From Acidobacteriota bacterium (GTDB lineage Bacteria > Acidobacteriota > Terriglobia > Terriglobales > Acidobacteriaceae): 62,354 nt of DNA. This document shows positions 4,958 to 30,236 of this stretch, piece by piece. The stretch covers positions 1 through 62,354 of the forward strand of contig JAJYUB010000019.1 of the NCBI GenBank assembly GCA_021792795.1, in the 5' to 3' direction. The position numbers and the translations under genes were made by a program. The notes under the pieces are model-generated. The model searched no databases. It was not told where the DNA came from and saw nothing but the letters and a program-made list of their open reading frames with translations. How positions within the stretch are numbered: the first letter of the stretch is position 1; each line of letters starts with the position of its first letter.

Positions 4958-5203
4958 CTATTTGACGCCACCGGGCCCAACCGGTTGTGGTTTGACAAGT
5001 TTTGCAAACGGAATTGGCTTAATCTGAACGGCTTGTTGTGCCAATCGATAGAACAGCTTGCCGCGTGAAGCCGATGTGCGGCGGTTAAAACGGAAGGTGA
5101 ACTCGTTCAGATAGTCGTCCAGGTACGCATTGCCAATGGCTCCTTGGTGCGTTCCCAACATCCAGCGCTTCAGCAACCCAATTACGAGGTGGACGCGCGG
5201 CAA
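4958..5203 (-). pseudogene. IS1595 (ISXO2-like) transposase, C-terminal relic
   Basis: The reading frame gives LPRVHLVIGLLKRWMLGTHQ, then YLNEFTFRFNRR and RGKLFYRLAQQAVQ. These are the characteristic end of ISXO2-like DDE transposases (LKRWLLGTHQGAV, YLDEFTFRFNRR). The catalytic N-terminal two thirds cannot be found in frame upstream; the sequence up to about 5600 is scrambled over several frames. The relic stops just downstream of the DeoR-type gene. It marks past transposition into this sugar region. No terminal inverted repeats were identified. Confidence 0.75.
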
Positions 5204-5608
5204 TACGTGCTCCGCCTCTGGCTGTTCGGCTTGAACTTGGCGTTGGTGCGCCGACATCGTTCTGCCCACTACCGATGGCCGCGAGATCCGGCTGCGGCGG
5301 ATCACCGAGCCAACAGCCGAGCAGAAGTCTTTGCTCCGGCAGCTCGGAATCAGCCTGCCCGAACATCTTCGATTGCAACACAAATGTAGTGCAGACTCGG
5401 CAGTAGCCTGAACTGATTCTGAACCACTTAGCCCATCTGCGGCCTCTTTCGTGACGAACTTCGGCTAGACCATTCCGGGGCCCCCTGGGGGAAGGTGCAG
5501 GCGCGTGCGGCGAAACTTGGCAACAATGCCGCGCTGCTGGGGGGCCATCCCGCTGCTGACCGGAAGAGGAGCCGATAGACGTCCAGGCGAAGCAGATCAT
5601 TTTCGAAG

Positions 5609-27556: not shown

Positions 27557-28741
27557 GTGCCGTCCAGTCCGATCCCCGCCATCACTTCCCCCGCCAAGGT
27601 GCCGATGCTGGACTTTTCTCGGCAATATCAGCCGATCCGCGCGGAAATCATAGCTGCCATCGAGCAGGTTTGTGACAGCCAGCACTTCATTCTAGGCGAA
27701 GAAGTCCGCCGGTTTGAGACTGCTGCCGCCTCCCTGTGTGACGTAGCGCATGGCATTGGATGCGCTTCCGGCACGGACGCCTTGTGGCTGGCGATGGCCG
27801 CCGCTGCAATCGACCCCGGCGACGCAGTCCTGACCACCCCATTTACTTTTTTCTCGACCGTCAGCTCGATTCTGCGCGTCGGGGCGCAGCCGTTATTGGC
27901 CGACATCGACCCCAGGACCTACAATCTGGATCCGGTGTCTGTCGCGACGGCGCTGCAGGACCGGGCGAAATCCACCCGGGTTCGCGCCATTCTGCCGGTC
28001 CATTTGTATGGGCAATGTGCCGACTGGGACAAATTCACGCAACTCAAACAGAAGTTTGACCTTTTGCTGATCGAAGACGCTGCTCAGGCCTTTGGTGCGA
28101 AGTGGAACGGACGACCGGCTGGCAGTCTCGGGGATTTGGCGGCCTTCAGCTTCTATCCCACAAAAAACCTGAGCGCCTACGGCGATGCTGGCTTGCTGAC
28201 CACTGGAAACGACCGTTTCGCGGATCGCGCCCGAATCCTCCGCGTGCACGGGATGCGCGAACGCTATTTTCACGAAGTGGTCGGCTGGAACAGTCGCCTC
28301 GATACAATCCAGGCTGCCGTGCTGCTGGTCAAATTGCGCTACATTGAAGGTTGGAACCGGCAGCGGCAAGAGCGGGCTAAAGTCTACGCCGATCTATTCA
28401 GCGGGCAAGGTTTGGCGGAACCGGGCCCGTATCCAGATCGCGGCGTCGTCCTGCCGTATGTCGATCCGCGCGGAACTCACGTCTTTCACCAATATGTGAT
28501 CCGCGCCCCACGCCGTGATGCCCTGCGAACATTCCTCGTCGAGCGTGGTATCGGCTCCGAAATCTACTATCCGATGCCGCTCCATCTGCAACAATGCTTC
28601 GCCGGTTTGGGCTATGCCGAAGGCTCATTTCCAGAGAGCGAACGCGCCGCCAAAGAAGTGTTAGCGTTGCCCATGTTTCCTGAGTTAACGGATGAAGAGC
28701 AACAGCGCGTCGTCGCCGCCATCGCGGAATTCCTAAGCTGA
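27557..28741 (+). CDS. DegT/DnrJ/EryC1/StrS family PLP aminotransferase
   Basis: 394 residues. Begins VPMLDFSRQYQPIRAEI, followed by HFILGEEVRRFETAAASL and GCASGTDALWLAMAA, the cofactor phosphate loop. IEDAAQAFGA carries the conserved Asp, and FSFYPTKNLSAYGDAG the PLP lysine. HVFHQYVIRAP and IYYPMPLHLQ are conserved near the end. Family members aminate 3- or 4-keto nucleotide sugars for glycan or antibiotic sugars. The GTG at 27557 gives this length, but the ATG at 27605 is also possible; neither has a clear ribosome site. No other nucleotide-sugar genes adjoin. Confidence 0.88.
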   Translation: MPSSPIPAITSPAKVPMLDFSRQYQPIRAEIIAAIEQVCDSQHFILGEEVRRFETAAASLCDVAHGIGCASGTDALWLAMAAAAIDPGDAVLTTPFTFFSTVSSILRVGAQPLLADIDPRTYNLDPVSVATALQDRAKSTRVRAILPVHLYGQCADWDKFTQLKQKFDLLLIEDAAQAFGAKWNGRPAGSLGDLAAFSFYPTKNLSAYGDAGLLTTGNDRFADRARILRVHGMRERYFHEVVGWNSRLDTIQAAVLLVKLRYIEGWNRQRQERAKVYADLFSGQGLAEPGPYPDRGVVLPYVDPRGTHVFHQYVIRAPRRDALRTFLVERGIGSEIYYPMPLHLQQCFAGLGYAEGSFPESERAAKEVLALPMFPELTDEEQQRVVAAIAEFLS

Positions 28742-28754
28742 TTGGCCTCGACAT

Positions 28755-29137
28755 ATGAAAAGACTCAAAACTCAACTTTTATTTGGCTTTCTTGTAGGCG
28801 CACTCGTTCCGGTGTTCTGGGGAATGCTGTCGTTCGTACTGTTCAATGTTTCAGAGGGCTGGATCAGTCGAGTCTATTGGAGGGCGGTTTATGTAACGTG
28901 CCCTTTTTGGCAGATAACTGGAGAAAAAGCAATGAGTTAGGTATCTGCTTGACTCAGGTGACCGCAACATATGGGACAAAGATTCAGGCTGTGCGGGCCC
29001 GAGACAACAATCTATTGGGGCTACCTGAGTCAAGCAGATACCTAACAGCAATGATATTAATGCCGCTACTGAACGGATGCCTTTATGCCGTCATCACTCT
29101 TGTAGTTGCCAAAGCTTGGGGATTTGTGAGCGCGTAG
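28755..29137 (+). pseudogene. Small two-helix membrane protein gene split by a MITE-like insertion
   Basis: The present frame encodes a 61-residue protein (MKRLKTQLLFGFLVGALVPV and on, one helix) and stops inside the inserted element at 28938. Removing the element (28936-29046) and one copy of the 8-bp duplication gives a continuous 87-residue frame: after GEKAM it goes on as ILMPLLNGCLYAVITLVVAK and ends AWGFVSA at 29137. That adds a second membrane helix. The family is not recognised. The gene begins 14 bp after the aminotransferase stop. Because the frame is restored without further damage, the insertion is probably recent. Confidence 0.8.
28936..29046. mobile_element. 111-bp MITE-like element with 24-bp perfect terminal inverted repeats
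   Basis: The left end (28936-28959) starts GTTAGGTATCTGC and the right end (29023-29046) is its exact reverse complement over 24 bp. The flanks carry an identical 8-bp target duplication, AGCAATGA, at 28928-28935 and 29047-29054. The 63-bp centre has no coding capacity. Such an element must be mobilised by a transposase elsewhere. No second copy of the ends was seen in this window. Confidence 0.9.
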
Positions 29138-29237
29138 GAGTGACTTCCCCTGGACCCCACTTTTTACAGATGAGGGCCAACGAGAAATGATCAATATCAA
29201 TGATCACTGCGGAGGAAGCCGACAACTCGAGCAGTAG

Positions 29238-30236
29238 CTACGCGTCTCTGTGATTGCTGAATTTCAGATCCAGAGCCAGCTTGTTGCCGACGGCCATGCG
29301 TCCGGAAAATTTTTCCATCTGTCCCGCGGACATAGCGGAGAACGTTCTGCCGAAAGCGGCGTTCCGGCGAATCATGTCGAGCGTCGGCATGCCCACCACC
29401 GCCGCGGCAACCGGCAGACTCAACGTGTACCGCAGCAGATTGGCCGCATCGCTCTTGCTGGGGCCGCTGCCCAGCAGGCCCTCCTGCCCCATCACCTTCA
29501 TCGCCAGAATGCCCATGTTTTTCTTGCGAGCTGTGGGCAAAGCCGTCAATTGGAAGCTCGAGCTCATGGATGGATTCAAGTCCATTCCGTGCGATCCGCT
29601 CGTCATGCCTTGCATGGCGGCGTTCAGCGCCATCTGGACGCAATCGAAATCGTGACGCTCAATGGCCGTTTGCAACACCGCCGGATTGTAATGGCTGGTG
29701 ATGCCAATGAAGCGGGTGACCTTTTGCTCGCGCAGCTTGTAGAGCGCATTCAGTACCCCATCCTTGGCCTCGACCTTCGCCAGGTCGTCCGCATTGTGCA
29801 ACGCATGAACGTGAATCAAATCGATCTGGTCGGTCTGCAGCCGCTTCAAGCTGCCTTCGAGAATCCGCATCGCCGCGTCGCCGTCGCGAGGCTCAATCTT
29901 GGTCGCCAGAAAAAATTCTTTGCGCCGCGTCTTGGCGACTTGGCCGACCCATGTCTCACTCTGTCCCTGCCCGTAACCGTACGCGGTGTCGAGATAGCTG
30001 ATACCGGAATCAAGCGCTAAATTGATCGCAGCGACGGCCGCAGATTCTCCACCGTACATTGAGAGACGGCTGCCGCAGCCAAACGCAACAATGGAAACGC
30101 GCGCGCCGGTTTTGCCGAGTATTCGCGTCTGCATGGCCCCGGATGCTTCCGCGGCGTGGCTACCCAACACTGCGGCTGCCGCGCCAGCGACCGCCGACTT
30201 TTCCAGAAATTCTCGTCTCGAAATTTTGTCTGTCAT
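29238..30236 (-). CDS. Tat-exported aldo/keto reductase
   Basis: 332 residues. A twin-arginine signal (SRREFLEKSAVAGAAAAVLG) ends near AEASG. The aldo/keto reductase barrel shows SYLDTAYGYG (Asp and Tyr of the catalytic tetrad), FLATKIE (Lys) and IHVHAL (His), then RFIGITSHYN and a cofactor region GILAMKVMGQ. Tat export of a folded NAD(P)H-type enzyme is unusual in general but is seen for this group in Acidobacteriota and Planctomycetes. GGAGGTTGCC precedes the ATG. The NIPSNAP gene lies just upstream on the same strand and is also Tat-exported. Confidence 0.9.
   Translation of the reverse strand: MTDKISRREFLEKSAVAGAAAAVLGSHAAEASGAMQTRILGKTGARVSIVAFGCGSRLSMYGGESAAVAAINLALDSGISYLDTAYGYGQGQSETWVGQVAKTRRKEFFLATKIEPRDGDAAMRILEGSLKRLQTDQIDLIHVHALHNADDLAKVEAKDGVLNALYKLREQKVTRFIGITSHYNPAVLQTAIERHDFDCVQMALNAAMQGMTSGSHGMDLNPSMSSSFQLTALPTARKKNMGILAMKVMGQEGLLGSGPSKSDAANLLRYTLSLPVAAAVVGMPTLDMIRRNAAFGRTFSAMSAGQMEKFSGRMAVGNKLALDLKFSNHRDA

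Follow-up and report, generated by a model that had tools for sequence, protein, structure and literature searches.

The genome of an acidobacterium contains two short reading frames that lie on either side of a 111-bp palindromic stretch and read as one small gene once this stretch is taken out, which raises the questions of what the stretch is, how it came to lie there and whether it broke a real gene. We analysed the locus within a window of 62,354 nucleotides (contig JAJYUB010000019.1 of assembly GCA_021792795.1), which is part of a draft genome (G000) of 4.04 Mb in 133 contigs. The features of the locus are compiled in Table 1. We hold with high confidence that the stretch is a miniature derivative of the IS1595 family of insertion sequences (IS), presumably transposed in trans, and that its insertion broke a small membrane-protein gene probably acquired by this lineage.

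Table 1. Features of the locus, in positions of the window (TIR, terminal inverted repeat; TSD, target site duplication)
Feature	Position	Strand	Remarks
DegT/DnrJ/EryC1/StrS aminotransferase gene, upstream neighbour	27557..28741	+	synteny
Truncated 5' part of the putative membrane-protein gene	28755..28940	+	60 native codons, one hybrid codon and an element-derived stop
TSD, left copy, AGCAATGA, 8 bp	28928..28935	+	exact; offset as in related elements
Miniature non-autonomous element with IS1595-family ends	28936..29046	.	111 bp; anatomy and end comparisons
Left TIR, 24 bp	28936..28959	+	sequence comparison
Element centre, 63 bp, non-coding	28960..29022	.	anatomy
Right TIR, 24 bp	29023..29046	-	sequence comparison
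TSD, right copy, AGCAATGA	29047..29054	+	exact 8-bp match to left copy
3' remainder of the putative membrane-protein gene, with second hydrophobic stretch	29055..29137	+	in frame once the element and one duplication copy are removed
Aldo/keto reductase gene, downstream neighbour	29238..30236	-	synteny

Anatomy and copy number of the element

The first 24 bases of the element are the perfect reverse complement of its last 24, and the inverted repeat extends imperfectly to 37 bp at 86%. By our own arithmetic, about 4e-8 perfect 24-bp inverted repeats with a spacer of up to 200 are expected in a window of this length, a figure that leaves the flanking 8-bp direct repeat uncounted. A preliminary description, made from the letters alone, had delimited a 111-bp element with 24-bp perfect TIRs and an 8-bp duplication, and this turned out to be correct to the base. 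Its view that the 63-bp centre codes for nothing was likewise borne out; the length is insufficient to encode a transposase.

The element is short, non-coding, bounded by TIRs and flanked by a target duplication, all of which are characteristics of a MITE. MITEs are also expected in several copies per genome, and here the draft genome holds one full copy. Since the element is single-copy in its own genome, we use 'MITE' for a miniature non-autonomous IS1595 derivative; the name given in the preliminary description stands in this sense, and does not stand as that of a high-copy family in this draft genome.

In addition to the full copy, a partial match was detected on contig C86, about 250 bases from the contig end. 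A pattern search for the TIRs with at most 3 mismatches added one end on contig C58; the backwards control also matched once. Compared over 18 bases, these assembled ends show 2 and 3 differences. Support for the C58 end comes from what lies next to it, the beginning of an IS1595-type transposase frame, which is cut by the contig end. An intact IS1595-type transposase gene was not found in the draft genome, only pieces of such genes: fragments on C82 and C18, the cut start on C58, a weak match on C52 and a fragment on C59 that lies inside another frame. As contigs break at IS copies, it would be unsafe to claim that an intact copy is absent. The match on C59 to PF12762, which is below the cut-off, was also considered as an intact transposase and rejected; the fragment ends a 337-aa frame (L045:424-1437), the front part of which resembles, by its motif, what we take to be a nucleoside-kinase-type protein.

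The window itself contains a second trace of the family. At 4961-5245, the minus strand carries a decayed remnant of an IS1595-family transposase, its 3' part (PF12762, 34.2 bits against a cut-off of 27), with an apparent degraded right end next to it at about 4960. This region looks like an old IS1595-family IS on the same contig as the element.

Matching ends on full IS1595-family elements

A search of 61 genomes with the 111 bp matched five at E ≤0.01, namely the own genome, the congeners G005, G006 and G009, and G012 from another genus. A separate stretch of 111 bp, at 29130-29240, is not repeated among the 10 genomes of the genus. The 20-base end GGTATCTGCTTGACTCAGGT is identical in G005 and G006. 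In the congeners, the copies that carry the ends are either degraded or truncated where a contig stops: the copy in G005 measures 0.86 kb and has a broken frame, and those in G006 are truncated. When the contigs of GTDB genomes were searched for exact GGTATCTGCTTGACTCAGGT, a search that may leave out records of the window's own genome, 22 stretches were obtained, of which 21 come from records named as acidobacterial MAGs and one from a record whose title says only 'bacterium'.

Two full elements carry these ends together with intact duplications. L051 is an IS of 1026 bp with 20/20 bases identical at both ends, and L062 one of 1023 bp with one end exact and a single mismatch in the other. Their exact 8-bp duplications, TCCGGCAA and TGTTTTGA, start 4 nt outside GGTATC; in the window element GTTA precedes GGTATC, and the geometry of the duplication is the same as in L051 and L062. 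The transposases of both elements are intact (318-319 aa) and match PF12762 with 101-105 bits (cut-off 27) and PF12760 with 48-49 bits (cut-off 25.4). The transposase of L038, an element of about 1.04 kb in G012, also matches PF12762 and PF12760 well above the cut-offs; its duplication CAGAGTTA is found at an offset of 5 nt, not 4 nt. No duplication was seen at L055, L025 and L031 (two-ended, 0.86-1.03 kb), which make up three of the six distinct full elements compared. The preliminary description had proposed to look for the same ends elsewhere and for a full IS that has them together with 8-bp duplications. Such an IS does exist, in L051 and L062, the ends being compared over 20 bases. The ends themselves recur in congeners and in other acidobacteria; of the whole element, the own draft genome holds one full copy only.

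Members of the IS1595 family are described as usually producing 8-bp duplications and having a single transposase gene, with an N-terminal zinc finger outside the IS1016 group (PMC8101967). The groups given for the family are IS1016, ISPna2, ISH4, IS1595, ISSod11, ISNwi and ISNha5, and they are presented as relatives of eukaryotic Merlin (PMC8101967). Like this family, the window element has an 8-bp TSD, and its TIRs are those of full elements with a Zn-ribbon and DDE_Tnp_IS1595; unlike a full IS1595-family IS, it is without a transposase gene and 111 bp long instead of about 1.02 kb. Thus, the 8-bp TSD and the TIRs common to transposase-encoding elements place it in the family as a non-autonomous derivative, whereas the DDE_Tnp_IS1595 transposase that an autonomous IS would encode itself is lacking. 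Because the centre is too short for a transposase, the element is only an IS1595 derivative and not an IS.

Inside the ends, the two halves of the element behave differently. The right 45 bp are 87-89% like the right end of the IS copies in G005 and G006. Against five sets of IS-copy ends, the right inner 25 bases gave z values of 4.1 to 5.8, and against the two own-genome ends values of 3.2 and 3.4. For the left inner 25 bases, the comparison with full IS ends stayed near chance (z -0.7 to 2.9), and the own-genome ends gave z 3.8 (C86) and 2.3 (C58).

The congener G009 has ten copies of the left end of a related IS (L012, L015, L018, L020, L021, L023, L024 and L026-L028). The flanks of all ten differ, and every copy lies some 80-120 bases from where its contig stops. 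Such a pattern may reflect a recent burst by which the assembly was broken up.

Short relatives in other genera

When the 111 bp were searched against 398 genomes of the family, at least 13 genomes, the own included, matched at E ≤1e-5, a number that is a lower bound since no more than two candidates were scored in each genome. When both ends were required strictly, with a gap of 44-74 bp between them, 3 of the 398 genomes matched, again with the own included, and there were zero control matches. Eight short candidates were compared. An exact 8-bp duplication at the 4-nt offset flanks five of them (the window element, L118, L119, L126 and L127), which measure 101-111 bp; no duplication was seen at L112, L064 and L060. 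The inner parts of L118, L119, L126 and L127 are weakly like that of the window element (z 3.3 to 5.6, taken as the better of two orientations against single-base shuffles). Short elements that are homologous to the window element or have the same ends exist in other genera. L064:7266-7532, in the Acidobacteria MAG DBS2-1.bin87, is a GC-rich element of 267 bp with exactly the same 20-bp ends; this MAG carries the full 1026-bp IS L051 too.

The closest of the short relatives bears on the origin of the element. It could be the product of a one-off internal deletion in one local IS copy and not a member of a lasting miniature lineage, and both the similarity of its right 45 bp to the IS right end in G005 and G006 and the single copy in the own genome would fit such an event. 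L112 in G631, a genome of another genus, is however 82% identical to the window element over 103 bp, with the centre included; between the 20-bp ends 50 of 64 aligned positions are identical, and none of 300 shuffles was as good. Moreover, the left inner part has no clear match among the left ends of the full IS compared. We therefore consider a one-off deletion unlikely. The idea that a low-copy miniature IS1595 lineage persisted, moved as a unit between genera within one acidobacterial family and silenced a just-acquired membrane-protein gene is put forward tentatively, as a possibility that falls short of an even chance; movement as a unit is suggested by the inner part, and not the ends alone, being common to the element in G631.

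A MITE derived from IS1595 is described for Haloquadratum walsbyi; it is 165 bp long and present in 7 copies, has an IR of 25 and a DR of 8, and its putative partner is ISHwa6 (PMC3852290). In the representative MITEs aligned in that paper, the borders alone resemble the full IS (PMC3852290). Going by this description and not by sequence, the window element is like the Haloquadratum walsbyi MITE in being short and without a transposase gene, with an IR of 24-25 bp and 8-bp duplications. Unlike the archaeal, multi-copy MITE, it is acidobacterial, single-copy in its genome and 111 bp long. IS1595-derived MITEs are thus already on record, and the window element is a new one, in an acidobacterium. 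The literature on IS1595, Merlin, MITEs and Acidobacteria, represented mostly by titles and the beginnings of abstracts, does not name the element there.

Target sites

To describe target choice, 64 distinct ends were collected that differ from the 20-mer at no more than 4 bases, duplicates being dropped by the outer 20 bases and the offset being fixed at 4 nt; the sample may include chance matches. Position 1 of the 8-bp target was T in 48 and position 8 was A in 54 of the 64 ends, and the second base outside the target was A in 46. The target in the window, AGCAATGA, agrees with the commonest base at position 8 and departs from it at position 1. Altogether, the IS1595 group studied here displays a near-symmetric target preference, with T at position 1, A at position 8 and A/T just outside.

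The interrupted gene and the history of its locus

The present frame, read from the ATG at 28755, runs into a stop inside the element after 61 residues. When 28755-28935 is joined to 29055-29137, an open frame of 87 codons results that ends in a stop, and the earlier claim that removal of the element and one duplication copy restores such a frame was confirmed. The second membrane helix that had been postulated after the junction corresponds to a second hydrophobic stretch located in the 3' remainder.

A search with the joined protein in the own genome and in 60 relatives yielded only the window's own two halves, and the protein belongs to no Pfam family. Among 399 genomes of the class, three besides the own gave a match: G347 (62%, residues 2-83), G291 (40%) and G406 (33%). 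The homologue in G347, from another genus, is unbroken, and its alignment with the joined frame passes through the junction gap-free (GEKAMILMPLLNG against GQKAMFLMPILNG) at 61-62% identity, with 41/60 identical residues before the junction and 11/23 after it; dN was 0.26 and dS, which is saturated, 2.6. A second unbroken homologue, in G656 (46/92 aligned columns), is also gap-free at the junction. A profile built from homologues matched 22 of the 398 genomes of the family, the own genome among them; G347, G291 and G406 had themselves gone into the profile, and many of the remaining matches are weak. In a search of plasmids the joined protein matched one record, from Niveispirillum (41% over residues 1-72). 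It had no match at E 0.01 among phage records, and in viral contigs seven stretches fitted a pattern derived from the homologue alignment, none of which was confirmed.

In G347 (L108/L129, about L108:1483-2459, minus strand), the homologue shows an ATGA overlap with the stop of the preceding ORF. This ORF presumably has an RHS-like stretch, judged by motif, and its tip weakly resembles phospholipase A2 (PF00068, 25.2 bits against a cut-off of 32.1, thus below it). A role as immunity protein was considered and dropped as a general function, as a link to such an ORF was seen by eye in one of 21 relatives' loci.

The DegT gene is present in all 10 genomes of the genus that were searched. Behind it, the small gene was found in none of the nine congeners within a downstream stretch of about 1.5 kb each, the best chance matches reaching E 0.2-0.3. 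Nor was it found elsewhere in the nine congener assemblies at the search thresholds, G001 and G007 being only 72-73% complete. An intact orthologue behind a DegT gene, as anticipated in the preliminary description, thus exists only in part: G347 has an unbroken homologue, but not behind DegT.

Two congeners, G006 and G007, keep the aldo/keto reductase gene downstream, and their gaps between DegT and reductase genes are 30 and 33 bp, compared to 496 in the window. Of the extra 463-466 bp, 119 bp are accounted for by the element and the duplication, so that the gained gene and the sequence around it would make up about 345 bp. Local GC, with the element included, is 47-52% versus mostly 55-64% in the flanking genes. 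Low GC gives weak support for a gain, because a second low-GC stretch (45%) lies immediately upstream of the DegT gene too. The absence of the gene from nine of nine congeners and the 30-33-bp gaps in G006 and G007 indicate that the lineage probably gained the gene and later lost it to the element. The broken gene is therefore probably a late arrival in the lineage, between the DegT and the aldo/keto reductase genes, and by parsimony the gain would have preceded the break.

The same observations could be taken to mean that the 87-codon frame is a chance ORF and the insertion intergenic, given that the protein lacks a Pfam family, the nine congeners lack the gene at the locus and the local GC is low. 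A chance ORF is hardly compatible with unbroken homologues that span the junction in G347 and G656, with more distant ones elsewhere, and with a substitution pattern typical of proteins (at saturated dS), and we regard it as highly improbable. The unbroken homologues and the substitution pattern argue that the joined 87-codon frame very probably was a real gene.

Folding of the palindrome

As a single strand, the element with its duplications (127 nt) folds with -60.7 kcal/mol, compared to a mean of -31.95 (sd 3.46) for shuffled sequences; the z value is -8.3, and none of 200 shuffles folded equally well. Rfam gave no match up to E 1 in 28500-29500, and no tRNA or tmRNA was detected in the window. 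No promoter-like site was found within the element, the single one in 28600-29300 being located outside of it. A terminator-like site overlaps the element; it is the sole such site and at chance level (one found in the region, 0.6 expected). A stationary RNA or DNA hairpin (a terminator, REP-like or regulatory structure) that arose or was kept for its structure would go with the very stable fold and the single copy in the own genome, but the exactness and fixed offset of the 8-bp duplication, the ends common to transposase-bearing elements, the short relatives at unrelated sites with different duplications, the blank Rfam search and the chance-level terminator make this the least credible of the explanations, with next to no likelihood.

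Discussion

Related bacteria were found to have both the IS family and the protein in unbroken form, and the insertion event is accordingly real, though of an ordinary kind. In the mechanism that we propose for an IS1595-family derivative, 28936-29046 is a transposase-less miniature form of an IS with a Zn-ribbon and DDE transposase (Pfam 'ISXO2-like'). A family transposase that a full IS provides in trans would recognise the inverted repeats, cut and join the element there and thereby insert it into an 8-bp target at codons 58-61 of the 87-codon gene, the target being duplicated in the process. The product of the target gene would be a small membrane protein in which two stretches are hydrophobic. 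Insertion would end translation after residue 61 and remove the second hydrophobic stretch, which makes the broken gene, as predicted from its reading frame, a probable loss-of-function allele. That the transposase acted in trans we infer, and the insertion would be recent, with the intact repeats and frames as sole grounds.

The general view of bacterial transposition is unchanged by this locus. It provides a clean and checkable case in which a non-autonomous IS breaks a gene in an acidobacterium, and, by common ends and duplication geometry, an element without genes is linked here with a named transposase family. Beyond that, it suggests a history of gain and subsequent break for one small gene at one locus.
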